A stretch of DNA of 64,000 nucleotides from Arenicellales bacterium (GTDB lineage: Bacteria > Pseudomonadota > Gammaproteobacteria > Arenicellales > JAHEKD01). Below the pieces are notes generated by a model. The model was not told where the DNA came from and ran no database searches. It worked only from the letters and a program-made list of their open reading frames with translations. Below, piece by piece: positions 8,000 to 20,363 of this stretch (the stretch's first letter is position 1; every line of letters starts with the position of its first letter). The position numbers and the translations under genes are program-made. The stretch lies in the NCBI GenBank assembly GCA_028284225.1, contig JANQSD010000004.1, positions 78,869 to 142,868 of the forward strand, given 5' to 3'.

Positions 8000-8992
8000 A
8001 TGAATGCAAATACAATTACAATAGAGGATATTCGGGCGACACAACGGCGTTTAGCTGACTATATTCACTATACACCTGCCACTCAGTCGCCTTGCTTAAC
8101 TGAATTAATGAATCACCCGGTTTATCTAAAGTTGGAACACCAACAAATTACCGGCAGCTTCAAAATCCGTGGGGCCAGCAATGCAATTGGGCAGCTGAAT
8201 GATCAGCAAAAACAGGCAGGTGTTGTCTGTGTATCGACAGGTAATCACGGGCGTGGCATTGCTTTCGCTGCTAAACAGGCTGGAGTCAAGGCACACATTT
8301 ATATGTCTTCCCTAGTACCTGATAATAAAGTTAAAGCCATTGCACAGCTCGGAGCCAAAATAAAGATTATTGGCAACAGTCAGGATGATGCCGAAACCGA
8401 GGCACTGGATTATTGCCACCAAAGTGGCGCGACTTATTTACCACCATTTGATCACAAAGATATTATCTGCGGTCAAGGGACGCTGGGCCTGGAAATCCTG
8501 GAACAAATCCCTGATATAGAATCTGTGCTGGTGCCTTTGTCTGGCGGTGGACTGATCAGCGGTATTGCAATCGCAATCAAGGCTTATAAACCTGATTGCA
8601 AAATTATCGCCATATCAATGGAAAAAGGAGCAGCAATGACCGAAAGCCAAAAAGCAGGCAAGCCTGTCATAGTGGAGGAATTGCCCACCTTTGCCGATTC
8701 ACTAGGAGGCGGTATTGGCTTAAACAATCAATTCACATTTAATATTGTTAAAACTTATATTGATGAGATCGTTCAAGTCTCCGAAGCTGAGATTTCGCAA
8801 GCCATCCGCCATGCTTATTCCGATGAAAAGCAGATCATAGAAGGCGGTGCTTCAGTTGGTATCGCCGGTTTATTGGCCAATAAAATACAACTCTATGGAT
8901 CAACAGTAGTGCTACTCAGCGGTTGTAATATTGACATGAAAACACACAAAGCTATCCTTGATGGTGCAAACAGCCTTGCTCAAATAAACTGA
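8000..8992 (+). CDS. eutB: EutB-like PLP-dependent 3-hydroxyaspartate dehydratase
   Basis: A 330-residue fold type II PLP enzyme of the threonine/serine dehydratase family. The Schiff-base Lys sits in TGSFKIRGASNA (about residues 50-61), the substrate Asn loop is STGNHGRG and the phosphate loop is SGGGLISG. Blocks VPDNKVKAIAQLGA, SMEKGAAMTES and ADSLGGGIGLNN are typical of EutB rather than biosynthetic IlvA, and there is no C-terminal ACT domain. EutB acts in hydroxyectoine breakdown, and the related BhcB acts in the beta-hydroxyaspartate cycle; both dehydrate 3-hydroxyaspartate to iminosuccinate. The EutC-like reductase that would use that product is in the same locus. It follows the aminotransferase by 14 bases, so the two form an operon. 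Confidence 0.85.
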   Translation: MNANTITIEDIRATQRRLADYIHYTPATQSPCLTELMNHPVYLKLEHQQITGSFKIRGASNAIGQLNDQQKQAGVVCVSTGNHGRGIAFAAKQAGVKAHIYMSSLVPDNKVKAIAQLGAKIKIIGNSQDDAETEALDYCHQSGATYLPPFDHKDIICGQGTLGLEILEQIPDIESVLVPLSGGGLISGIAIAIKAYKPDCKIIAISMEKGAAMTESQKAGKPVIVEELPTFADSLGGGIGLNNQFTFNIVKTYIDEIVQVSEAEISQAIRHAYSDEKQIIEGGASVGIAGLLANKIQLYGSTVVLLSGCNIDMKTHKAILDGANSLAQIN

Positions 8993-9092
8993 TATTGCAT
9001 CCGTGCTTAGTCGAACAACCGCTAGACATAACAAATTTTATTACTATTGTGCTCTGATTATTCCCTACCCGCTAAGCTAATTTAACTATTGC

Positions 9093-9455
9093 TCAACTGG
9101 TATTGGCTGAATTTCTTTCTGACGGGAATTTCCAAGCGATGCCATCGAGATCTTTCGGTTCATAATTGGTAATAAAATATTTAATGCGGAAGTAATTTGC
9201 CAGACGATTGAGTATGTCCATACAAACAGCCTTACCGTTTCTGAAATCATACAAAAAAGATTTTGAACAACCAATCGAGTCAGCCAACACAACAATATTA
9301 ATATCTTTAGCACTCAACTTCTGACGCAATAAAACAACTAAGTCTGGCAAACTGACAACGTCAAAATCTTTAATCAAATCACCTTTTTGGAATTCAGAAC
9401 TAAATAATAATGGATTCTTATCAAATTCTCTGTCTACACTAGTTTGATCTTTCAT
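9093..9455 (-). CDS. XRE-like helix-turn-helix protein
   Basis: A 120-residue protein with an HTH-like core near residues 52-92: VVLADSIGCSKSFLYDFRNGKA followed by MDILNRLANYF, the pattern of XRE/Cro proteins. The N-terminal 50 residues and the short tail match nothing I recognise. It is convergent with eutB and lies upstream, in map order, of the minus-strand graspetide directon, but nothing shows that it controls it. A shorter overlapping frame in the same stretch is a shadow. Confidence 0.6.
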   Translation of the reverse strand: MKDQTSVDREFDKNPLLFSSEFQKGDLIKDFDVVSLPDLVVLLRQKLSAKDINIVVLADSIGCSKSFLYDFRNGKAVCMDILNRLANYFRIKYFITNYEPKDLDGIAWKFPSERNSANTS

Positions 9456-9657
9456 GATTACTACTGAGCCTTTGTTATTTATTGTGTAGGTTTATATTAA
9501 CTTAGCTCAAGATTAATTTTTCCACGAAAATGGAAAAATCAACAATCTCTTAGAAAATGTTTTCTTTGAGTGCTACCAACATGGTTGCAAAGCATGGTAC
9601 CCACAGTCACCAGTTTTACACTCGGCTTATAAAATCAAAGCAAAGACAACTAAAATT

Positions 9658-9715
9658 AGCGGCAGGCAGAGGGTCAATTTGTTGGAATCTGTCGTATTGA
9701 TTTCGGCCTGCCGCT
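9658..9715 (-). terminator. Long-loop hairpin after the DUF6438 gene, possible terminator
   Basis: A perfect 10-bp inverted repeat AGCGGCAGGC (9658-9667) / GCCTGCCGCT (9706-9715) with a 38-base loop, 13 bases beyond the stop codon of the DUF6438 gene. The following T-tract on the minus strand is weak, so it may be a terminator or an RNA-stabilising hairpin at the end of the graspetide directon. Confidence 0.4.
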
Positions 9716-9728
9716 GTATGTTGACACC

Positions 9729-10970
9729 TTAGGGCGTAACTAGCATCTCAACCTTAAACGCAGCTCGTAGTTCAGCAACAAGTTGATCCAGTGCCGGTTT
9801 ATCTACCGCCGCGAAGCAACCCGGATAGTAAACCACAGTCCGTGTTCCAGCAATCGTCGTTTCAGAAATGGTCGCTGTCGGCAAGTCAGTCGCAATTTGA
9901 TTACCGCAGGCAGCACTTCCTTGAGTGATATCAGTCGGTAAACTGTTGAAATTTGCAGATTGTAATGCCGAATTTGCCGCCGCGAATGAACCAGACGGTA
10001 ATACGCCGGTGCTCAGCCCTGGATTGGTTGTGAACTGACCTGCGTTTAACTCGTAAAACTCATTCGGATAAACTGTAATTGTGTATTCAGGACAAGTTCC
10101 AAAACAAACGGTCTGGCCAAGACTGATGCCGGTATCGGGAATAGGCCCTGTGGGCGAAGGAGTGATTGGATAGGTACAAATTCCAGGACAATCGGCACCG
10201 CCACTTGTCGGATCACAACTATCTGAAGGATCATCGACGCAAATCTGGCCATCCGGACATGGAAATGCCGCAATACCACCACACATTTGACCCTCATATT
10301 CAGCTTTGCCATCCTCAGGATAGCGAACACGGTCCTCATCGCCTTTCACTTCATCAGGAGTAGAAACATCAACTGTAGAGGAAATCTTCCGTCCCTGGAC
10401 CGCTTCAATATCAATTGTCTCTACATCTCCGTCAGTATGACGTGCTGTATAAACACCGACCACATCCAGTTCGACAGGGCTCTTAACTACGAAGAAACCA
10501 TCAAGAAAGGCAAAATCTACACAGACACCATCGATAGGACAAAAATATCCTGCAATATCAAAACAACTGACTTGCACTGCACCATCAGGTTGCAGCACTG
10601 TTTTTTTAAACGGTGTAACGCTAAATGGTCCTGCAGGCGTGCCAAACTGGTCTGCAAGTGCAACCTTGCCAACGATGGTAATCTCTTCATCAAAGGGATT
10701 GTGGATGTTAACAACCGTTCGATACGTGCCCCTGGCCAGGTTACCATCCTGATGCGGTAACAACAGCGAACAAAGAACCTTGGTGGAGTATTGAAATTCT
10801 GTTTTGACAACATCACCAGCCGCAATTGCCTGGGCGGAATGTGTAGCACCAATCATTAACAACAGCAGCAAATAATATATTCTTGCTAGGCATTGACCTA
10901 TTAATCGCACAGAATTACCTATTGCTAACAAGATTTTTCGAAAAAATAAAAAACGGCTTGATAAAAACAT
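9729..10970 (-). CDS. Exported protein with Cys-rich insert and DUF6438-like C-terminal domain
   Basis: A 413-residue protein. Residues 30-50 form a hydrophobic export signal ending SAQA. Residues 55-185 look like a beta-rich domain with the phrase RTVVNIHNPFDEEI. Residues 229-265 are a cysteine-rich insert (CGG.....CPDGQICVDD..DSCDP..GGADCPGIC). Residues 285-407 match the DUF6438 pattern: CFGTCPEYTITVYPN, then TDLPT and VVYYPGCF. A good ribosome binding site (AAGGAG) precedes the ATG. It is the last gene of the minus-strand graspetide directon, 201 bases after mdnC. Its role is unknown; processing or surface display of the peptide would be a guess. Confidence 0.75.
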   Translation of the reverse strand: MFLSSRFLFFRKILLAIGNSVRLIGQCLARIYYLLLLLMIGATHSAQAIAAGDVVKTEFQYSTKVLCSLLLPHQDGNLARGTYRTVVNIHNPFDEEITIVGKVALADQFGTPAGPFSVTPFKKTVLQPDGAVQVSCFDIAGYFCPIDGVCVDFAFLDGFFVVKSPVELDVVGVYTARHTDGDVETIDIEAVQGRKISSTVDVSTPDEVKGDEDRVRYPEDGKAEYEGQMCGGIAAFPCPDGQICVDDPSDSCDPTSGGADCPGICTYPITPSPTGPIPDTGISLGQTVCFGTCPEYTITVYPNEFYELNAGQFTTNPGLSTGVLPSGSFAAANSALQSANFNSLPTDITQGSAACGNQIATDLPTATISETTIAGTRTVVYYPGCFAAVDKPALDQLVAELRAAFKVEMLVTP

Positions 10971-11171
10971 AATTAGTCTCCTTTTGTATATTTCTTTTTG
11001 TATTTTTTTCTATAAATTTCTTTTTTATCAGCTTCCCTTTCTCTCCAAAATACGCAGGAAGCTTCACCCTATCTTATAAGATGTGCATTTAATAATCAAG
11101 CAACGAATTATTTTATGAAAAAATTGTTACAACAATAAATATTCATAAAATAACAAAATTTTGAATCTGTT

Positions 11172-12182
11172 TTAGATATGATTTTCCCAGGCGGTAAAAT
11201 CAATATTTTGTCTTTGTTCAACGCCTAGTAATACACCAGCAATAGCTGCCGATATAGTCAGACCCGGTGATTTTTCTAGCCAAAAGAATTCTCCTACCGC
11301 ATTCACTTCAAGGAAAACAAGACGATCCTCAGGAGTAACGATAAAATCGCATGCGGCATAGTTTAGCCCCAGTTTGGCAGTTAACCGCAATAATTTTTGT
11401 TCCACCTCGACAGGCAGTTGATAGTTGGTCCAGCAGTCGATCAGTCCAACACCATCGCGCCTCCAGTCTACGGCGGTATTGTCTTGACGTTGTGAATCAA
11501 TAGCGGCGGTCATTACTTTCTGCCCCACCACAGTAACACGAAGTTCCAGTTTCTTCTCGATATGTTCCTGAAAAGTCATCGGACAAAAACGTAACCCTGA
11601 AAGATCATCCAGGTCTTTACGATTTATCACATTGGTAAATACCACGTTTTCAATACCCTCACGGTAGATGGCAAACGAGTGCTGCATTTTTGTAACCATT
11701 TTGCCATTTACTGATTCAAAAAATTCCAGCACCTCAACAGGATCATTGGAAACAAGCGTTTTCGGTATATCCAACCCCAGCTTAAGAGCGTAATCTAGTT
11801 GCAACTCTTTATGATCCGTGCGGCGGACACTTTCGAGAGGATCTAAATGAAAACAAGGAAGCGCAGCAATTGCCCCAAATAATGTCCGCCGGGTTTCCTG
11901 TAACGAAGCAGCATGGGTATCCCCTAATTGCACTGGCAGCGATGCTCCGGCATTGAACCTGCGATACCATACGGCTGTAATTTCATCGAGATGGTATTGC
12001 CCCTTATCCGTTTTCAATATTCGGCGGTTACCTTTATGATCATATTCACAACTTAACTGAACTAAATCAGGATACCGATCTGTATTTAGCCGAATGGTAT
12101 TAGCGCCACGATGATGCAGTTCAGACGATACGGTTTCAATACAAGCATTGTCATCGCTACGAGTGATAATGAGCACATTCAC
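11172..12182 (-). CDS. mdnC: Graspetide ATP-grasp ligase, MdnC/MvdD-like (ester-forming)
   Basis: A 336-residue ATP-grasp protein. Blocks VWYRR, FHLDP, TKMQHSFAIY, FCPMTFQE, LELRVTVVGQKV, DWRRDG, LGLNYAACDFIVTPE and FLEVNAVGEFFWLE correspond to microviridin ligase MdnC (MvdD), which makes the Thr-Asp and Ser-Glu side-chain esters in the core TxKxPSDxEE. The acidic and Asn residues of FLEVNAVGEF are the usual metal-ATP ligands. It starts with GTG at 12182, and this overlaps the stop of mdnB by four bases (GTGA), so translation is coupled. The assignment to the ester-forming member rests on the SQFAIY/FCPMTFQE-type blocks and is firm; activity on this unusual precursor is inferred. Confidence 0.93.
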   Translation of the reverse strand: MNVLIITRSDDNACIETVSSELHHRGANTIRLNTDRYPDLVQLSCEYDHKGNRRILKTDKGQYHLDEITAVWYRRFNAGASLPVQLGDTHAASLQETRRTLFGAIAALPCFHLDPLESVRRTDHKELQLDYALKLGLDIPKTLVSNDPVEVLEFFESVNGKMVTKMQHSFAIYREGIENVVFTNVINRKDLDDLSGLRFCPMTFQEHIEKKLELRVTVVGQKVMTAAIDSQRQDNTAVDWRRDGVGLIDCWTNYQLPVEVEQKLLRLTAKLGLNYAACDFIVTPEDRLVFLEVNAVGEFFWLEKSPGLTISAAIAGVLLGVEQRQNIDFTAWENHI

Positions 12183-13165
12183 GACCTAACTTCCTCCGCT
12201 AACAGGGTTTGTGCAATGGCCTGGGCAATATTAAAGCCCAGATCGCGTTGTAACCATCCCCACTCTCCAGCCTGATTGAGTTCGAGAAAGATGTAACGAC
12301 CTTCTGTGTCGATAATAAAGTCGACCGCACTATACAACAAACCCATACGCTTCATTAAACATTGAACTTGTTGCTCTACTTTTTCAGGTAATTCTTCTTC
12401 CGTCCAGTGCACATCATCCGCCGTAGTCAGGCGCCGCCAATCTATTGCTCCATAGCCTGTTTTACCGGCTCGAATAGCCCCTACAAAAGTTTTATCACCG
12501 ACAAAGATAGCTCGTAACTCACGTTGTTTGGGAATAAGAGATTGAAAAATCTGCGGGGCATAACGTACATCGTCAATAGATTGCATATCTTCGTCGGTAA
12601 CCTGGCTGGTATAGACAAAATCTCCAGATGCATCCATTGTTTGAGAAAGCGGCCCCAACAACTTGGTTACCATCTTGCCACCGACTTGAGCGAATAACTG
12701 GCGAACGCATTCGGGATCATTGGCAACAATAGTAACCGGTGTGGTTAATCCGATTTCTGTTGCTAATTTCAATTGCAACAACTTGGACTCAGCTTGACGC
12801 CCAGCTCGCAGCGGATTTACCCAACGACAGTGATCCAGCAAATCCATAGCATCGAAGAAAGCAGTTTTCGATTCTTGATAACAATGGTCGGCAAAGGACG
12901 CATCTAAATCCATAGGTAATTTGCCTGGCCATAATCTTCTCGCCCATACTCCCCGCAATGACTGCAGATCAATCACCTGCCCGGACAGTTTCAGGCTTAG
13001 TCCAGACAATTTACCATCAAATGAAACACTCAAAGTTGCATCGGTGGGAAAACGATCGGTATCAAATCGTACAGCGGGAACACCCGCCCTATCCAATGCG
13101 TCTTGCACCAAATCGATAGTGTAGTAATCACCACTATGGGTCAGTAATAAGATGAGGTCACGCAT
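12179..13165 (-). CDS. mdnB: Graspetide ATP-grasp ligase, MdnB/MvdC-like (amide-forming)
   Basis: A 328-residue ATP-grasp protein. The N-terminus LILLLTHSGDYYTIDLV, then VWARRLWP, KLLQLKLATEIGL, GKMVTKLLGPLSQTM, FQSLIPKQRELRAIFV, AIDWRR, VDFIIDTEGRYIFLELNQAGEWGWLQ follow MdnB (MvdC), the enzyme that closes the Lys-Glu/Asp lactam after the esters are formed. The GEWGWL ending of the ATP-binding site, as against GEFFWL in MdnC, separates the two. It lies 202 bases after the precursor gene and overlaps mdnC by four bases. Having both ligases predicts bicyclic or tricyclic ester/amide products from each core. Confidence 0.93.
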   Translation of the reverse strand: MRDLILLLTHSGDYYTIDLVQDALDRAGVPAVRFDTDRFPTDATLSVSFDGKLSGLSLKLSGQVIDLQSLRGVWARRLWPGKLPMDLDASFADHCYQESKTAFFDAMDLLDHCRWVNPLRAGRQAESKLLQLKLATEIGLTTPVTIVANDPECVRQLFAQVGGKMVTKLLGPLSQTMDASGDFVYTSQVTDEDMQSIDDVRYAPQIFQSLIPKQRELRAIFVGDKTFVGAIRAGKTGYGAIDWRRLTTADDVHWTEEELPEKVEQQVQCLMKRMGLLYSAVDFIIDTEGRYIFLELNQAGEWGWLQRDLGFNIAQAIAQTLLAEEVRS

Positions 13166-13367
13166 AGATTGATCCGTTAGCTTTGAATTTCAATGCTCGA
13201 AACATGAATTCAACAATGAATATGCTTTTGAGTCAGCACTTTCATAATCAACAAAGCAGGTTAACGCAGATTGATTCATGAATACGACTTTTTTATACGC
13301 AAGCTGAATCAGATCTTGATTTAATACTGCTGGTTCCGCTTCAAAATAACTTAAATCGTATATTTAT

Positions 13368-14750
13368 CTAAGCAACCTCATCATTATCTGAGGGGAACTT
13401 GGCCGTAGCGATGTTAGATTCACAGCCGCCTTCATCACCTTCATCATTATCCGAAGGGAACTTCAGGGTTACCGCCATCAATGTTTTTAAGTCTTGCCCA
13501 TTGTCTTCCTCATCCGAAGGGAACTTGGCCGTAATGATCTCACCAGGATCAATTGAACCACCATCTTCACGATCAGAAGGAAACTTCAGCGTTACTGGAG
13601 GCAGATAATCATCGGGAAGACCTTCATCAGAATCTGATGGGAATTTCAATGTTACAGGATTCTTTGGTAAATCGCATGGACCCATGCAGCCACCATCCTC
13701 GCTGTCTGATGGGAATTTCAGCGTCACAGCTAAGTCCGTCCCGGGGCCTGAATCTTCAGCATCTGAGGGGAATTTTCTCGTCTGTACCGGCTCAGCAAAA
13801 TTATCTTCATGATCAGACGGCGCTTTAAGCGTTACCGGAACACTATTATCTCCCCCGTCTTCATGGTCTGAGGGTGCTTTGAGCGTCACGGCTGTAACAG
13901 CCAAGGTATTGACTCCGGTATCCTCCTGATCTGACGGAAACTTTCTTGTTTCTACCGGCGTGTCCCCTTCATCGTGGTCCGATGGATACTTCAGGGTAAC
14001 AAAGACGACATCAGTTAAATCTGTCCCGCTATCTTCATGATCTGAAGGAGACTTCATGGTTACGAAAACTCCATCACTGCCTAAGTCCTCTTCATCCGAC
14101 GGGAATTTTTCGGTCACTGCTCCACCATCTTCCTGGTCTGAAGGGAACTTTAATGTGACTAATACTTCTTTTCCCGCATCAGTACCAAAATCGTCTTCGT
14201 GGTCGGATGGGCTTTTCATTGTCACCGCTATTTCGGCCCCTGACGCTTGAGAAGAAGCGGCTTGTTGTCGGTTCTGGTTTTCCAAAAAGCGTGCAAAAAA
14301 CGGACGTACTGGTTTATTCGAATAACTTTTGCTTTTAAATTTAGCAAATTTCTTTTTTAATGTAGCCAGTACTGATCCTTTGGTTCCCACTAGACTATGC
14401 ACATCCAATGCTGCCTTAGTTGCCTGGGCCAATGGCTGTACTACGCCGTTTTGTTCAAAGGTTCTTTCTGCCAATTCCAGAGTACGATCTACTACTTGTA
14501 CCAACATTCTGCCCCTGGATTCGGCTAAATCTTCGAAAATTTCAATCTGATTACTATCCGCCTTTTCACGTTTGAGTGCAGCCACAGCACTACTTAATGA
14601 TTGATATATCTGAATTTGGGAGTCTACTGATGAATTCGCAACCGCTAGCGCATTGCGCGCACCTTGGATCGCCTGTTCTGATGTCAGTGCCGGGGGAGAT
14701 TTTACTTTCCTGACACTTTTTCTCTTTGAAGCTTTAGATACTCTCGCCAT
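13368..14750 (-). CDS. Multi-core graspetide (microviridin-type) precursor with 15 cores
   Basis: A 460-residue precursor. Residues 150-159 read PFFARFLENQ, the helix that microviridin leaders use to bind their ligases. Residues 177-458 hold 15 copies of T-x-K-x-P-S-D-x-(E/D)-(D/E), the microviridin core, with Thr at 177, 199, 213, 231, 252, 268, 289, 307, 324, 343, 367, 387, 407, 428 and 449. All seven ring-related positions are kept in all 15. Spacers of 4-14 residues are Gly/Asp-rich; three Cys occur (355, 359, 443). Residues 1-149 are a basic then helical extension absent from known short leaders. AGGAGG stands six bases before the ATG. MdnB and MdnC genes follow directly. Classical MdnA is about 50 residues with one core. 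No protease, transporter or acetyltransferase gene is near. Confidence 0.93.
   Translation of the reverse strand: MARVSKASKRKSVRKVKSPPALTSEQAIQGARNALAVANSSVDSQIQIYQSLSSAVAALKREKADSNQIEIFEDLAESRGRMLVQVVDRTLELAERTFEQNGVVQPLAQATKAALDVHSLVGTKGSVLATLKKKFAKFKSKSYSNKPVRPFFARFLENQNRQQAASSQASGAEIAVTMKSPSDHEDDFGTDAGKEVLVTLKFPSDQEDGGAVTEKFPSDEEDLGSDGVFVTMKSPSDHEDSGTDLTDVVFVTLKYPSDHDEGDTPVETRKFPSDQEDTGVNTLAVTAVTLKAPSDHEDGGDNSVPVTLKAPSDHEDNFAEPVQTRKFPSDAEDSGPGTDLAVTLKFPSDSEDGGCMGPCDLPKNPVTLKFPSDSDEGLPDDYLPPVTLKFPSDREDGGSIDPGEIITAKFPSDEEDNGQDLKTLMAVTLKFPSDNDEGDEGGCESNIATAKFPSDNDEVA
13377..14222 (-). repeat. Tandem array of 15 graspetide core units
   Basis: Degenerate coding repeat inside the precursor gene. 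The unit is about 54-75 bases: a conserved segment for TxKxPSDx(E/D)(D/E) and a variable spacer. After the Asp the variable residue is H (five times), Q, E, S or N (twice each), A or R (once each), never Trp. The acidic pair is ED in 11 units and DE in four (5, 11, 14, 15). The codons differ between units, which argues for selection on the protein rather than recent DNA duplication. Confidence 0.9.
14274..14303 (-). other. Graspetide leader recognition motif within precursor
   Basis: Codes residues 150-159, PFFARFLENQ. In microviridin precursors this PFFARFL segment is the helix bound by both ATP-grasp ligases. Here it lies 17 residues before the first core and after a 149-residue extension. 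Confidence 0.85.
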
Positions 14751-14789
14751 GATCGTCCTCCTGATTTATTATAATTAACTTGAAAATTT

Positions 14790-14795
14790 ATTATA
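14790..14795 (-). promoter_or_regulatory. Possible -10 element before the graspetide precursor gene
   Basis: A consensus TATAAT on the minus strand, 39 bases before the precursor ATG. No good -35 box is seen at the usual distance, so the precursor may have its own weak promoter within the directon, or this may be chance in A+T-rich DNA. Confidence 0.3.
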
Positions 14796-14895
14796 ACGCC
14801 ATTATTTCTCAAAAGCTAATTTATAGCAATGAGAATCACTCCAAAAAGCCACAGTCTGTGTTTTTAGTAGATTATTGGTTATTAGAGAAGATATT

Positions 14896-15777
14896 TTAAA
14901 GCGCATTATAAGCATACGCTGTTTTAGTAGTACCTTTTAAATCAAACCATCCCGGTTGTTTTTGAAGAGTCCTGAAGAGATTATTAGCACCTGATACAAC
15001 ACTGGTTTGAAAATGCTCTAATTTATCCTGATCATCTTCTTTTAGCTTTGGTGTTAGATCATAATCAAATGAAAACTCCCCAACCAACGGGAATCCATTT
15101 TTCTGTAAATACCAAAAACTTAGACAGGCTTTTACAACGGTCATCTCATTTTCGTCTCGGTTATCATCATCAAAAATAAATTGCCCTATTTTGCGACGTA
15201 CTTCATAGGCATCAAATGTATTAACCACACTCATCCGGGTTTTCCTTGGGATATCAAGTCTCTTCAATCCTGGGAATAATTTAGTCACATTTTGAATCTT
15301 TTTGAGATCAAGCATGTCTTCACTAATGATCGAACTTGAATGAGAAAACTTGCTGGTAAATACAGGAGTAATATCTTCCTCAAACTTGTAACCGCCTTCT
15401 TTTACATCAGGGTTGCTCACATCTTGAACCGCGGAGATATAGCGATCTGCAGCGCGATATTTAAGTGTAGTCTTGTATTGTATTTCATCTTCACCTTCCT
15501 TTCTGACACGCAAAATAAAACCTTTACGACGAAGTTCAAGCCCGGCTGTATCGCGATAATGAGTTTGCCGAATATCTTCTCCATCTTGTTTCTTAATGAT
15601 TTTTCCATCAAGCTTTTCTTCCACCAAAAATTTAATCAAACGCCAGAATGATGTAGCACCTTCAGCTCTATTTTGAAACCGATCAACATTTAGCATTAGC
15701 TTATATTCTCGTGAAGTGACTGGTTTATTTAACTGTTTCATATCGCTTATCAACCATCGGCTTGAACACTTGACCAT
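14896..15777 (-). CDS. CYTH-like (triphosphate tunnel-type) protein, unknown role
   Basis: A 293-residue soluble protein. The pattern REYKLML near the N-terminus, YRDTAGLELRRKGFILRVRK (about 74-93), IQYKTTLKYR and, near the C-terminus, GEFSFDYDL resembles the alternating charged strands of CYTH/TTM proteins (ExExK, then YFDT..L....LRxR, then TxK, then ExE). This fold binds triphosphates or long acidic or basic ligands. The assignment is by pattern only and the first strand is not perfect. An alternative ATG at 15741 lies 12 codons in. It is 30 bases after the BTRD1 gene and 145 bases before the graspetide precursor, on the same strand. Confidence 0.55.
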   Translation of the reverse strand: MVKCSSRWLISDMKQLNKPVTSREYKLMLNVDRFQNRAEGATSFWRLIKFLVEEKLDGKIIKKQDGEDIRQTHYRDTAGLELRRKGFILRVRKEGEDEIQYKTTLKYRAADRYISAVQDVSNPDVKEGGYKFEEDITPVFTSKFSHSSSIISEDMLDLKKIQNVTKLFPGLKRLDIPRKTRMSVVNTFDAYEVRRKIGQFIFDDDNRDENEMTVVKACLSFWYLQKNGFPLVGEFSFDYDLTPKLKEDDQDKLEHFQTSVVSGANNLFRTLQKQPGWFDLKGTTKTAYAYNAL

Positions 15778-15807
15778 TAAAAATAAAATCAGAATTAAGT
15801 TCGATTA

Positions 15808-17463
15808 CTAACATGGGTCGAAGTCCTCTCCAACCAGGCACTTGGGATGATTCTGCCCTTCTTCTTCGCAAATTTTCTTTAGATACCTATCGATACCGCA
15901 ATATCCATTGTCGATAGTTGTGTTCAGTTGAAATTTCAATAACATCTCTTCCATATGATGAAAAACTTCGTCACTGAAAAGTTCGTGTGCATCAATGACT
16001 TCACCTTCGGGTGGTTGATGTTCAATGAATTGAATCCGTGAGTTAGACGTCAACTCAAGTATTAATTTCATATTAGGCAATGGTTCAAACGGACCCGTTT
16101 GTGTAATAGGATGCGGAAAATCCCAACCGTGATTACTACCTTCACATCCTCCAATCGGTCCTGAAAATTCAATGCCATTCAACAGAAAATTCTGATTACC
16201 AAAGTCAGGATGCAAGTTAATATCTTCGACATCCGGCACGTGGTTAAACGGATCTGTATCGATAATCTCTTCACCCACCTGCCAACTGAAGCCACCAAGA
16301 TTTATAATTCTCATACCGCAAAATGTATCAGGTAAAACAATGTCCTGCTGATCATTCTTTGTAGGTAAAAAGTCCGGTAACGCACTGGATGGTTTTGTAG
16401 GTATCGTTAATAGAGGTACCTCGTGACCGCTTTCGGTTTCCGTCATCACTCCAAAATCGATGACTATTTGCGGATTACCACTAAGCTGAATCCAGACTGG
16501 TAAATCAGGCAAGCCCGCGTCTGTGGCGCCACTGCCCGTAGGGTTCTGAGGATCATCGGGATTATCGTCGTCTGGAGTCTCAACAACGAACATTTCTATA
16601 TCGCGGGTACGTAGACCATCCTGTGCCTGCTCTAATCCAAAAGCCAAAAAATCATCTAGATTACGTGGTCGTGATAACCGGCTTTCTCCATCTCCTGATG
16701 AAAATACGCCGACAAAGCGATGGTTCCCAGGTTGTCCGATGCGTTCTACATCAACCAATTCTAAACCATCGGCAATCATTTGATTTCTAAGTTGGCGAAA
16801 AGCTACTGGGCGCCTCGGCGTTGTGAAAAAATTTGAGCCCGAACCATCGCGCCATAATCCGGTGTAAAGCAGCTCTCCTTGGATACGCTCAACTTCGACA
16901 TCAATCAGGCGCAATCCCTGCTGTGTCAGAGTGTTGCCACGTGAGAGAAAAGCCGCCTCTGACATAGGACGAGTAACCAAGTCTTGACCTGTACCTGGCC
17001 GCCAAACACCCACATAGCGTCGACCACCATTGGAGGTACGGAAGATTTCTATATCAATAAGACGAAGCCCTTGTGCGTTACGTGCTTCTCGTTCCTCACG
17101 AAGCTGGATGGGAGAAAGCGGCCCGGCAAATATATTGCCACCGCTTCCACCGACCCAAACTCCGGAGTACAAACGTTGATTTTCTATCACAGTTGTTTCG
17201 ACATCGATCAATCGTAGTCCCTGATCAATCATATCAGAGCCACGGTCTATAAAATCGTTGCGGGACTCGGGTGCGGTAAAAATGTTAGTTCCGGACCCTG
17301 AATGCCATACAGCTTGAAAACGCAACTCATCCGCGAATATGGTCGTCGTAAACAAAAAAGCACAGATGCATCTGGCAGTAATATAAATGGCTGATCTAAC
17401 ATTGCAAAATGCAGTCAGAATCGTAAAATACGCATCAGCAAGGGTAATATTTATTATTTTCAT
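15808..17463 (-). CDS. Exported protein with five BTRD1-type repeats
   Basis: A 551-residue protein. A hydrophobic segment ending near residue 44 (TTTIFA, then DELRF) is a likely signal peptide. Residues 48-292 hold five repeats of about 48 residues of the pattern (Y/F)xGVWxxGxG....... GLRLIDVE, the bacterial tandem repeat domain found for example beside the peptidase-like domain of polyglycine hydrolases. The C-terminal 250 residues (starting DLPVWIQLSGNPQIV) are unknown and contain several Cys. It is the first gene of the graspetide directon. No ribosome binding site is clear before the ATG. A carbohydrate or peptide binding role is a guess. Confidence 0.7.
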   Translation of the reverse strand: MKIINITLADAYFTILTAFCNVRSAIYITARCICAFLFTTTIFADELRFQAVWHSGSGTNIFTAPESRNDFIDRGSDMIDQGLRLIDVETTVIENQRLYSGVWVGGSGGNIFAGPLSPIQLREEREARNAQGLRLIDIEIFRTSNGGRRYVGVWRPGTGQDLVTRPMSEAAFLSRGNTLTQQGLRLIDVEVERIQGELLYTGLWRDGSGSNFFTTPRRPVAFRQLRNQMIADGLELVDVERIGQPGNHRFVGVFSSGDGESRLSRPRNLDDFLAFGLEQAQDGLRTRDIEMFVVETPDDDNPDDPQNPTGSGATDAGLPDLPVWIQLSGNPQIVIDFGVMTETESGHEVPLLTIPTKPSSALPDFLPTKNDQQDIVLPDTFCGMRIINLGGFSWQVGEEIIDTDPFNHVPDVEDINLHPDFGNQNFLLNGIEFSGPIGGCEGSNHGWDFPHPITQTGPFEPLPNMKLILELTSNSRIQFIEHQPPEGEVIDAHELFSDEVFHHMEEMLLKFQLNTTIDNGYCGIDRYLKKICEEEGQNHPKCLVGEDFDPC

Positions 17464-17867
17464 TTTTTATTATTTTTTTATTGATATGTTTACATCATAA
17501 ACTGTAATAGAATTTAATTATATGAAATATTTCACAAAACCTGGTATTTCTTAGAACCCATCTAAAATATCAGGCAATATTCAGACGAGACAAAAACGAA
17601 CCCAAAAGTACAGTTTATATACTCGTAACTGAGCATTTTGAGCGAGTGTTTAATGATGTGTCAACAGGCATAGGAATTTTGAGATAGGCTCTAATAATAA
17701 ATATAATCTCTTATAATCTCGGAACGATTAATCACCTACCACTGAAAAAGATAGGCCGGCAGAAGGTAGGCTAAATGATTACCAGGGGATATAATTTAAT
17801 ATTCATATTGAAACTTCGTTTAACCAGGATCATGGTTAATTTGTATTAATCGGCAACTTAAACATTA
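17464..17867. other. Divergent intergenic region before the graspetide directon
   Basis: About 400 bases, A+T-rich, between the minus-strand directon and the plus-strand GlxA/AraC regulator. It should contain the promoters of both. I see no RNA gene, repeat or coding remnant. Confidence 0.4.
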
Positions 17868-18824
17868 ATGGAAAATTCAATCACCACAAAAGTCGGTCTT
17901 CTTCTGTTACCACAATTTTCTATGATTTCTTATGCTTCGACGGTCGAAACTTTTTTGCTGGCGAATAAACTGGCTGAAGAAGAGCTCTACAATTGTGTGG
18001 TATTTACTCAAGACAATGATTCGGTTAAATCTACAATTGGTTCTTTGACTCATCCTGATAATACAATTGATGAGGCCATGAAGATGGATTGCTTTTTTGT
18101 CTGCGGTAGTGATAACCCAATAGATGAGGTTAATGACAAGACAAAAGCCATGCTAATAAATTTACCCAAGAAAAATATTCCTCTCGGTGCGATTTCCTCA
18201 GGAATATATGTTTTAGCCAAGTTGGGATTGTTCGACAGATATCGATGTAGTGTTCATTGGCACCATTTTAATTTCATGCAACATGCATTCCCTGATGTAA
18301 TTTTTACTAAATGTCTATATGAAATAGATATAAATCGATTTAGCTGTCCGGGTGGCGCTTCAGCAGTGCACTTGATAGTCACGTTAATCAAGCATCGGCA
18401 TGGTACTGAGCTTGCGGCAGATATTTCTGAAACACTGATGTTAGAAAGAATTCGAAGCACTGAAGATAAACAACGAATTCCCCTAAAACATATTATAGGC
18501 ACTAATCATCCAAAATTAATTGAGGCAGTTACTTTAATGGAGTCAAACATTGAAGAGCCGATCAGCCTTAAAGAACTGTCTCATTATGTTGGGATATCCA
18601 CTCGACAACTTGAACGATTGTTTCGAGAAAATTTAGACTCTACACCGACTAAATATTACATGGATTTGAGACTTCAAATAGCCAGAAATTTGCTCGTCAA
18701 TACAAGTAAATCAATCACGAAGATAGCGCAAGCAACTGGGTTTATATCACAATCCCATTTTAGTCAATGTTATCGAAGTATTTATGGCATTTCACCAACG
18801 AAACAACGTCAACAGTCTACATAA
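17868..18824 (+). CDS. GlxA-family AraC-type regulator (DJ-1/PfpI domain plus HTH)
   Basis: A 318-residue regulator. The N-terminal half (about 8-185) has a class I glutamine-amidotransferase/DJ-1 fold pattern (VGLLLLPQFSMISYASTVETF; CGSDNP; GAISSGIYVLAKLGL). The C-terminal 100 residues are an AraC double HTH (ISLKELSHYVGISTRQLERLFRE and IAQATGFISQSHFSQCYR). The architecture is that of CdhR, GbdR and ArgR-type activators, which in Pseudomonas control carnitine, glycine betaine or arginine use. A BCCT carrier and a GcvT-like gene occur within 14 kb, so a role in methylated-amine metabolism is plausible but unproven. It is also divergent from the graspetide directon. Confidence 0.85.
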   Translation: MENSITTKVGLLLLPQFSMISYASTVETFLLANKLAEEELYNCVVFTQDNDSVKSTIGSLTHPDNTIDEAMKMDCFFVCGSDNPIDEVNDKTKAMLINLPKKNIPLGAISSGIYVLAKLGLFDRYRCSVHWHHFNFMQHAFPDVIFTKCLYEIDINRFSCPGGASAVHLIVTLIKHRHGTELAADISETLMLERIRSTEDKQRIPLKHIIGTNHPKLIEAVTLMESNIEEPISLKELSHYVGISTRQLERLFRENLDSTPTKYYMDLRLQIARNLLVNTSKSITKIAQATGFISQSHFSQCYRSIYGISPTKQRQQST

Positions 18825-18927
18825 CCTTACCTACGCAAAAAATTGGATGATAATCTAGCGAAAATAAATAAGGTACGCAGAGGCTGATTAGCTATGGATT
18901 CGTCAGCCAAGAAACTAGATTATTAAT

Positions 18928-19274
18928 GTAAGCGGGCAATTCTGGACGCACTACTAATTTAAGCGCTAATCTGTCACGCTTGCATTTTTTCAAACGGAGA
19001 CAATTATGCTATTGAGAATGCGATCAGACCCTTTGTGTTTGGCCGCAAAAATAGTTTATTCTCCGACACGGTATCGGGGGCAAAAGCCAGTGCCAATTTA
19101 TATTCGTTGATTGAGACGGCGAAAGTCAATGATCTTGAACCATTTGCCTATTTAAAACATGTCTTTGCTGAATTACCCAATGTCACGTGTATTGAAGACA
19201 TTGAAGCCTTGCTGCCATTCGAACCCAAGGCCAAATTGGAACAAGCGGCGTAGCAGCGTGAATGCAACGGTTAC
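18928..19274 (+). mobile_element. IS66-family remnant with imperfect terminal inverted repeats
   Basis: Left end GTAAGCGGGCAATTCTGGACGC (18928-18949) resembles an IS66 terminus starting GTAAGCG. The reverse complement of the right end begins GTAACCGTTGCATTC (19274 inwards). Between them only the transposase C-terminus survives, so this is an internal-deletion relic. The 8-bp flanks do not match, so no target duplication is kept. Confidence 0.55.
18963..19253 (+). pseudogene. IS66-family transposase, C-terminal fragment
   Basis: Translation gives IENAIRPFVFGRKNSLFSDT, then GAKASANLYSLIETAKVN and a C-terminal PFAYLKHVF.ELP segment with DIEALLPF, the well-known end of IS66 TnpC. The frame is open only from 18963, so the DDE catalytic part is lost and no start codon is meaningful. 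Confidence 0.85.
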
Positions 19275-19981
19275 CGTCGAACTTCAACTTGATCAAGTAG
19301 AATTTGGCAATAACCTGTTCCGCCAGATTTGTAACCAGTAATAGTAAACCCTCTCCCATTTGAATAGTTTAGTGATTCGTAGTAAGAAATATACTGATAG
19401 CGTGGGTTATTTATTTCTACAACTTGATCGGTCCAGTTAGTTGTTGCTTGCACGTTAGTAGCCGTAGGTATATTCAATTCTAATGTCATATATCGTCCTG
19501 TATACAGGTTATTTCTATCGCGTTCAGAATAACCATCATGCAATGATACTCTAGGGTCGATAACTGTGTCGGGATTATTTGCATACATGTAGTGTCCATG
19601 CGAATTCTTATTCGCATCAAAATAAATATTATTAAGGACTCTTACTTGACGTCCATTTAGTTTCAGTCCGTGATAATAAACATAAAACCATGTTTGGGTA
19701 TCGTCTTGCGCACACCCTGGAGCCATCCAAAGTCGAACTTTGATTCCTTTAATAATATGGTTAAGAGGGCGAGAGGTTAGATGCGCCGTTCCATTTCTAT
19801 CAAGATTCATATTCAAAACACCATATCTTTCTGTGCTTCTTGAAGAATAATTTGAGACACCCCATTTTGACGATTCTAATCGCTCATTATTAAAGTCATC
19901 ATAAACTTCCCATTGTGCGAATGCTGTTAAAGATAAAAGCATTAATATTGCTGACCCTACAAATTTCAATAAGATTTTCAT
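19271..19981 (-). CDS. Exported protein of unknown function, lectin-like beta-sandwich suspected
   Basis: A 236-residue protein with a clear signal peptide (LLSLTAFA, then QWEVYDDF). The mature start WEVYDDFNNERLESSKW is the usual opening of concanavalin/LamG-type modules that bind or cleave sugars. I see no catalytic E..E pair, so hydrolase activity is not claimed. Its last codons overlap the right end of the IS66 relic, so the original C-terminus may have been changed by that insertion. A terminator-like gap follows towards 19270 and the promoter must lie before 19982. Confidence 0.6.
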   Translation of the reverse strand: MKILLKFVGSAILMLLSLTAFAQWEVYDDFNNERLESSKWGVSNYSSRSTERYGVLNMNLDRNGTAHLTSRPLNHIIKGIKVRLWMAPGCAQDDTQTWFYVYYHGLKLNGRQVRVLNNIYFDANKNSHGHYMYANNPDTVIDPRVSLHDGYSERDRNNLYTGRYMTLELNIPTATNVQATTNWTDQVVEINNPRYQYISYYESLNYSNGRGFTITGYKSGGTGYCQILLDQVEVRR

Positions 19982-20363
19982 GTTATTCGCCTTGTTATTT
20001 ATAGTAGAGATAGCTTACTTGTAGGAAAAATATTTATCGTTTAACTATTACGCAAAAATTCTATGAATTACTTCACAAAAACAACTGATTTGACTAAAAA
20101 AGATAGAAATTATTCATAAAACTGTGATTCAAGCTCCTTTTAAGCTTATTCTTGAGTAGATAATACTACTATTGACCAGCGTGGCTTAACTAAGCGTGTA
20201 TTTATTAATGTGATTAGCGCTGCTTGTGATATGGAAAAAGCAAGGCCGGCATAAAAGCCGGCCAAGCTAACACACAGAAAAGAAAAGGAGTACCCTCAAT
20301 GTATGCAAATTTTTCAGTAACTTAAATACCCGTTCGTCATCAAAACCCAGTCAACTGATACAA
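19982..20363. other. Intergenic region with BCCT terminator
   Basis: A 382-base gap between the BCCT gene and the exported protein gene, both on the minus strand. It holds the hairpin terminator listed at 20234-20263. No gene is seen in the remainder. Confidence 0.4.
20234..20263 (-). terminator. Rho-independent terminator of the SBP-BCCT operon
   Basis: Perfect G+C-rich 7-bp stem GGCCGGC (20244-20250) / GCCGGCC (20257-20263), loop ATAAAA, followed on the minus strand by TTGCTTTTTCC. It lies about 100 bases after the BCCT stop codon. Confidence 0.8.

Follow-up and report, generated by a model that had tools for sequence, protein, structure and literature searches.

A microviridin-family precursor with fifteen cores in a family-conserved order, possibly acting as one uncut protease-inhibitor protein

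The window examined here is a stretch of 64,000 nucleotides from the genome of an Arenicellales bacterium (contig JANQSD010000004.1). On its minus strand, at 13368..14750, lies a precursor gene for a microviridin-type graspetide with 15 cores. From its ATG start it encodes 460 amino acids (49.4 kDa), and a Shine-Dalgarno-like AGGAGG can be read in the sequence 6 bases upstream of the start codon (14757..14762, minus strand). The protein opens with an N-terminal domain (residues 1–147; 14310..14750, minus strand), followed by a leader helix (residues 148–162; 14265..14309, minus strand) that contains PFFARFLENQNRQ, with the PFFARFL motif at residues 150–156. AlphaFold2 predicts the leader to be helical over residues 150–171. 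The leader is conserved in the 15-core proteins, with at least 13 of its 15 residues in each of the seven others identical to those of the window's own protein, P0001.

Behind the leader stand 15 units of the strict form T.K.PSD.[ED][ED], with the ring positions intact in every one. Given with their first residue and their coordinates on the minus strand, they are core 1, TMKSPSDHED (177; 14193..14222); core 2, TLKFPSDQED (199; 14127..14156); core 3, TEKFPSDEED (213; 14085..14114); core 4, TMKSPSDHED (231; 14031..14060); core 5, TLKYPSDHDE (252; 13968..13997); core 6, TRKFPSDQED (268; 13920..13949); core 7, TLKAPSDHED (289; 13857..13886); core 8, TLKAPSDHED (307; 13803..13832); core 9, TRKFPSDAED (324; 13752..13781); core 10, TLKFPSDSED (343; 13695..13724); core 11, TLKFPSDSDE (367; 13623..13652); core 12, TLKFPSDRED (387; 13563..13592); core 13, TAKFPSDEED (407; 13503..13532); core 14, TLKFPSDNDE (428; 13440..13469); and core 15, TAKFPSDNDE (449; 13377..13406). 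No strict unit arose in 2000 shuffles of the window protein. Linkers of 4–14 residues separate the cores, and from core 1 onwards the remaining 284 residues include 68 Asp/Glu and 21 Lys/Arg. An earlier, sequence-only reading of this DNA had described a PFFARFLE leader with 15 copies of TxKxPSDx(E/D)(D/E), followed by genes for MdnB- and MdnC-like ligases, and all of these are present as described.

Both ligase genes are downstream of the precursor and encode ATP-grasp proteins. The MdnB/MvdC-like ligase (12179..13165, minus strand) is predicted to close the Lys-Glu/Asp amide; it scores 365 bits with TIGR04185, below the curated equivalog cut-off of 425, and its best match among solved structures is 5ig8 (299.5 bits), with AMdnB 7m4s next. 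The MdnC/MvdD-like ligase (11172..12182, minus strand), predicted to close two esters per core, scores 415.8 bits with TIGR04184, below the curated equivalog cut-off of 475, and best matches 5ig9 (281.8 bits). The two ligase genes overlap by 4 bases and the order is precursor, MdnB-like, MdnC-like. A ligase search of the host genome found matches at these two places and no others. The precursor itself scores 188.9 bits with the NCBIfam model NF033738 microvirid_RiPP (cut-off 26) and 129.7 bits with Pfam PF12559 (cut-off 21), for which it is the sole match in the host genome. Judged by leader, cores and ligases, the gene belongs to the microviridin family (group 1 graspetides). This membership is not news, since proteins of this kind already receive the label microviridin from the NCBI model.

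The surroundings of the cluster were scanned for protein families. On the precursor's strand are a DUF6438 protein with a signal-like N-terminus (9729-10970), a CYTH-like protein with a weak match below the cut-off (14896-15777) and a protein with BTRD1 repeats (15808-17463). Additionally, 19035-19253 encodes a 72-residue fragment that matches the C-terminus of IS66 transposases and is a remnant close to the cluster. No exporter or peptidase families were matched in NCBIfam or Pfam by the ten proteins around the window cluster. Four cluster proteins gave no match to a defence system in PADLOC, there were no RNA families within window positions 8000-20000, and promoter and terminator scans were near the shuffled background.

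Ordinary microviridin precursors have about 50 residues and do not have a 147-residue N-terminal domain like the one in the window precursor. This domain, which is conserved in relatives, is predicted by AlphaFold2 to consist of a basic tail and a five-helix bundle (residues 24–139). In the full-length model residues 21–140 fall in blocks of pLDDT 82–94, and the domain modelled alone has a mean pLDDT of 84.2 and a pTM of 0.66. A search for stand-alone relatives with residues 17–140 gave 46 candidates, none with E ≤ 0.001, and a fold search in which TPR-like and 14-3-3-like folds were considered returned a common helical arrangement and nothing more. The full-length model has a mean pLDDT of 49.6, with the cores below 50; it is uninformative on the modified protein because AlphaFold2 ignores cross-links.

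How far is the number of 15 cores shared? A protein database search, in which the 7988 candidates sharing most words were scored, gave 43 relatives including the window's protein; more may exist, and proteins much longer than its length range of 0.55–1.75 times the query would escape it. A second search, run with a query of 671 residues, covered lengths up to about 1170, found no higher strict core count within that reach and brought the total to 58 proteins. Among these, 15 strict cores are present in 8 proteins, 14 in 1, 13 in 3, 10 in 1, 8 in 2, 7 in 7, 6 in 6, 5 in 7, 4 in 12, 3 in 4, 2 in 6 and 1 in 1. The copy-number comparison that the sequence-only reading had proposed thus has 15 as its highest strict count; when Arg is accepted in place of Lys, P0044 has 16 units and P0045 has 15. 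There are therefore at least eight proteins with exactly 15 strict cores, P0001-P0008. The seven others are 52–79% identical to the window's, come solely from the protein database and are encoded on contigs of 2.2–7.1 kb. The eight represent about four lineages, since P0004-P0006 and P0007-P0008 are close kin. Core number is not absolute, because P0009 has 13 strict cores and, as aligned, is without cores 10 and 11.

That reading had also held that free loss of the T, K, S and D positions in homologues would speak against it. Such loss is not seen: the ring positions are intact in all 120 units of P0001-P0008, and in P0009, P0010, P0011, P0044 and P0045 the Lys is kept in 63 of 68 units, the other five having Arg. 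Among the 225 core-like units of the other 45 proteins, 16 carry a change, where a unit is anything with at least three of five features. Architecture varies more widely. In a group that includes P0017, P0020 and P0034 the cores are flanked by two other regions, and most of this group are without the PFFxRFL motif by pattern. A domain of the form PLGQRF...PVGALTP is placed after the cores in P0017, P0020, P0034 and others, and before the leader and cores in L003, L005, L006, P0023 and P0031. P0016 has four cores and then an Arg-rich stretch resembling the same repeats in another frame, possibly a frameshift or an assembly error.

The units of the window array are old. Over its 105 core pairs synonymous sites are saturated (pS 0.86) and there are zero replacements at T, K, P, S and D; the acid pair has a pN/pS of 0.20, through exchange of E and D, and the three variable positions 0.59. 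This saturation with invariant T, K, P, S and D points to old units with ring residues under purifying selection, and bears out the suggestion that the intact ring positions of all 15 units argue for selection. The 30-nt cores have DNA identities of 50–83% (mean 67%), and Tandem Repeats Finder reported nothing for the array, the repeats being too diverged in DNA; recent expansion of one core is ruled out on both counts. There is a signal of likeness between cores three apart, reached by 6 of 5000 shuffles (at offset 4 by 361 of 5000; seven offsets tested), which suggests an old triplet duplication, a hint on which nothing further is based here.

The cores of P0001-P0008 also pair one to one in order. 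Identity was calculated core by core from the flanks and the variable positions, with T, K, P, S and D left out, and in all 28 pairs of proteins it is higher on the diagonal (0.42–0.87) than off it (0.23–0.27). The best match of a core is on the diagonal for 5 to 15 of the 15 cores, and the optimal assignment agrees for 3 to 15; the most distant pairs are unresolved core by core because these counts fall as low as 5/15 and 3/15. An alignment-free order score, compared with 1000 shuffles per pair, gives z of 6.9–10.5 for the window protein against P0002-P0008 (0/1000 shuffles each) and 4.2 against P0009, again with no shuffle reaching it. Outside this set z is -0.5 to 1.9 against P0010, P0011, P0044, P0045, P0014, L003, L005 and L006, and 2.3 against P0046 (12/1000 shuffles). 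Therefore the order is a property of the window's own family. A sister family, P0011, P0044 and P0045, has a different frozen order, with z of 6.7–8.8 among themselves.

In microviridin J the residue between T and K (position 5) enters the S1 pocket of the protease (PMC7823629), and this intermediate residue is described as setting specificity, with Leu for elastase, Arg or Lys for trypsin and Met for subtilisin (PMC7823629). In the window protein ten cores carry Leu or Met here, cores 3, 6 and 9 carry Arg or Glu, and cores 13 and 15 carry Ala. When the eight proteins are compared, cores 2, 5, 8, 10, 11 and 12 always have Leu at this place and cores 7 and 14 have either Leu or Met; cores 3, 6 and 9 have Arg, Lys or Glu, cores 13 and 15 have Ala, and cores 1 and 4 are mixed. 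The class is thus retained at 13 of 15 positions, and the entropy of 1.30 bits overall falls to 0.10 within a position. The exchange of Arg, Lys and Glu at cores 3, 6 and 9 would be odd if each head had one target protease.

The ligases place the window among other long precursors. In the MdnB-like tree (53 rows) window, L004, L005 and L006 form one clade with support of 100/98, and in the MdnC-like tree (53 rows) window, L004, L005, L006 and L069 form one with support of 100/99; several branches in the region of the window and L004-L006 are long and flagged as unsure in placement, and the ligase of L003, cut by a contig end, was excluded. The precursors of window, L004, L005 and L006 have 10–15 cores, and the other loci of the genome-contig scan have 1–4 strict cores. 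Among the 65 loci of that scan the highest count is 13 strict cores and 61 have 1–4. Nine proteins near L004, L005 and L006 contain no exporter families and one Peptidase_M24, about 1.4 kb past the ligase in L006.

No 15-core system was found in 59 other genomes near the host, none of which has a match (one is of the same genus, 75% complete), and in its class 2 of 368 other genomes have any match, neither of them 15-core. One genome of that class, G091, shares an identical stretch of 3144 bases with a Thiotrichaceae MAG, in keeping with Gammaproteobacteria as the probable class. Matches were found in 23 of the 195 genomes from the phylum of L004; 20 loci, out of 34 match rows, were opened and none has more than 13 cores. 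Myxobacterial MAGs repeatedly hold long multi-core systems, whose horizontal spread is plausible. Also in the phylum of L004, locus L079 (G540, C64) has a 471-residue ORF with 13 strict cores and, by pattern, no PFF.[RK]F[LM]. Elsewhere, on contig C254 of genome G119, which holds L069 and L073, a graspetide-like precursor (L073:9231-10079, minus strand) has six TxxYPSD units, with Ala in place of the ring Lys in five of the six, and carries EPLFVDFLKGQ, a helix resembling a leader, at the C-terminus; a full-length relative of the MdnC-like ligases adjoins it. By its sequence this helix seems to be a leader placed naturally as a 'follower', a repositioning that has been achieved by engineering (PMC13003496).

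What would such a precursor become? Microviridins have two esters and one amide in each core. By analogy with AMdnA and this ring pattern, the T1-D7 and S6-E/D9 esters and the K3-E/D10 amide would be assigned to each core here. The PFFARFL helix would dock onto the MdnC-like ligase, which would close T1-D7 and then S6-E/D9, moving from core to core, and the MdnB-like ligase would afterwards close K3-E/D10. At most this would be 45 ring closures, the loss of 45 waters or 810.5 Da. The result would be a helical N-terminal domain with 15 small cages strung on acidic linkers 4–14 residues long. As the S1-pocket residues differ from core to core, the heads, each at its set place in the chain, would meet different serine proteases. 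We put the chances at about even that this family-conserved precursor and its two ligases, with up to three rings per core, make one uncut 15-headed protease-inhibitor protein, which might leave the cell by some route or stay within it. The more specific proposal of a never-cut 49-kDa multi-protease trap, with 15 ordered cages each having its own S1 residue, up to 45 cross-links and a wider ligase clade that acts on large proteins of at least ten cores in place of peptide precursors, is more tentative and falls somewhat short of even.

Is the chain cut or uncut? The sequence-only reading had allowed for both, and cutting of the modified chain between cores would release up to 15 small microviridins, a one-gene inhibitor library. 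Class II microviridin precursors carry several cores (PMC7823629, PMC13039773), and the linkers here are short, acidic and Gly-rich. Of the 112 inter-core linkers of the eight proteins, 49 contain GG, 67 contain G[GAS] and 24 contain K or R, and Gly is at +2 past the core in 73 of 120 cases. GG is found in 8/8 proteins at linker 10 and in 7/8 at linkers 2 and 12; together with the frequent +2 Gly, this means that glycine-directed cutting may occur at some linkers. Host proteases from outside the cluster might also cut the chain, leader proteases being frequently encoded there (PMC13039773). However, there is no uniform cleavage motif across the 112 linkers, and 3 of the 14 linkers (3, 5 and 6) are without GG in any of the eight proteins. 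A search for Peptidase_C39 (PF03412) in the window's genome, which is 96% complete, gave no match, and the same search was positive in 8 of 14 control genomes; among four genomes with 10–13-core relatives a single genome has a C39 match, on a contig other than the precursor's. Linker length and sequence are also conserved, with length invariant after cores 3, 4, 6, 9, 12 and 13 in the eight proteins and, in the 15-core proteins, identity to the window's linkers of 0.34–0.63 against 0.33–0.69 for the N-terminal domain. Some relatives have large post-core regions; in P0046-P0048 the cores are mid-protein and are followed by 430–550 residues that look helical by sequence. Cutting is not required for function, because the modified microviridin B precursor inhibits elastase with its leader attached, at a low nanomolar IC50 (PMC11672978). 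The fixed order alone fits a cut polyprotein too, as inheritance without reshuffling retains order. Taken together, the data on linkers, motif, C39 and relatives favour the uncut chain, although they fall short of proof. Given the lack of a uniform motif and of C39 and the long post-core regions in relatives, we therefore rank the beads-on-a-string product above the library, which we consider rather unlikely.

The cross-linked chain could instead have no role as a protease inhibitor; it might be an acidic scaffold that proteases cannot degrade, bind metals or surfaces, or serve for storage or as matrix. The excess of acidic residues from core 1 onwards would suit such a role, as would the interchange of opposite charges, in cores 3, 6 and 9, at the residue presumed to enter the S1 pocket, and the family matches of the neighbouring genes give no function. 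Yet the tricyclic microviridin consensus is fully retained, and at six positions all eight proteins have the S1-pocket Leu of elastase-inhibiting microviridins (PMC7823629), so that we regard a non-inhibitor role as improbable. Less probable by far is an array of 15 copies without use, made by passive repeat slippage or in decay. Near-identical Gly-rich relatives with many cores do exist, the unit similarity within L003, L005 and L006 being 0.58–0.62, but in the window it is 0.25, the units are old and diverse with all ring positions kept, and core number and order recur in seven relatives. We reject slippage or decay on the grounds of the synonymous saturation, with T, K, P, S and D unchanged, and of the 120 intact units.

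Precursors of RiPPs are usually seen as disposable carriers. Here selection appears to keep the carrier itself: the number and order of the 15 cores, their linker lengths and their head-specific residues. If the chain stays whole, it would offer a genetically encoded array of tricyclic inhibitors of chosen specificity in one protein. It also makes it testable how as many as 45 rings could be closed on a single substrate with one leader and a pair of ligases. New here are the set order of the 15 cores, the N-terminal domain and the ligase clade, all of them outside the sequence-only reading. In the literature consulted, which leaves the main genome-mining surveys uncovered, no microviridin precursor with more than five cores was recognised; the 15-core family may be in print or in supplements.

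Among known systems, class II microviridin precursors are the closest in plan, with several cores behind one leader; up to five are reported in the sources consulted (PMC7823629, PMC13039773), against 15 here. Their cores may or may not be separated by double-glycine, which is found in under half of the linkers of the eight 15-core proteins (49/112), and a C39 peptidase is normally in the cluster, whereas the window genome has no PF03412 match. By core number and the missing C39 peptidase the window precursor departs from the published description of class II. AMdnA of Anabaena sp. PCC 7120, a class II precursor, is described with a PFFARFL-type leader, MdnB- and MdnC-like ligases and tandem TxKYPSDx[DE][ED] cores comparable to the window's, but has 3 cores and a short leader in place of 15 cores and a 147-residue helical domain plus leader (PMC5934393). 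AMdnC processes three natural and four engineered cores, and on three cores its most abundant product has 5 of 6 predicted closures (PMC5934393). Plesiocin (4 repeats), thuringinin (3) and corallotide (5) are graspetides that, like the window's, repeat a cross-linked motif along one chain, with different ring patterns and ligases and fewer repeats (PMC12291112, PMC13097080). The potency of plesiocin increases with motif number, and graspetide groups with long repeat precursors are mentioned in the same source (PMC13097080).

Nearer relatives were found among the loci and proteins of this study. L004/P0010 (MAG Co_bin.297) is like the window in its leader, a related N-terminal domain and the MdnB- then MdnC-like gene order, and its ligase is the sister of the window's in the MvdD tree; it differs in having 10 cores in an unrelated order (z -0.5). 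L003, L005 and L006, from myxobacterial MAGs, also have at least ten cores (12, 12 and 13), and L005 and L006 are in the window's ligase clade, but these precursors have another N-terminal domain and near-identical Gly-rich repeats, with an order shared weakly among themselves (z 3.3–3.5) and at about 0–2 with the window. P0011, P0044 and P0045 (14–16 units) have an N-terminal domain and leader related to the window's and differ in an additional region of about 190 residues that separates the leader from the cores, in Lys-to-Arg changes in one or two units of each protein and in an unrelated order. Beyond the graspetides, multi-domain Kazal-type inhibitors carry many heads with differing P1 residues on a single chain. 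If the window's chain is whole it would work in a similar way, as a many-headed inhibitor in which ester and amide cross-links between side chains replace the disulfides that fold the Kazal domains, a likeness for which we claim no kinship.
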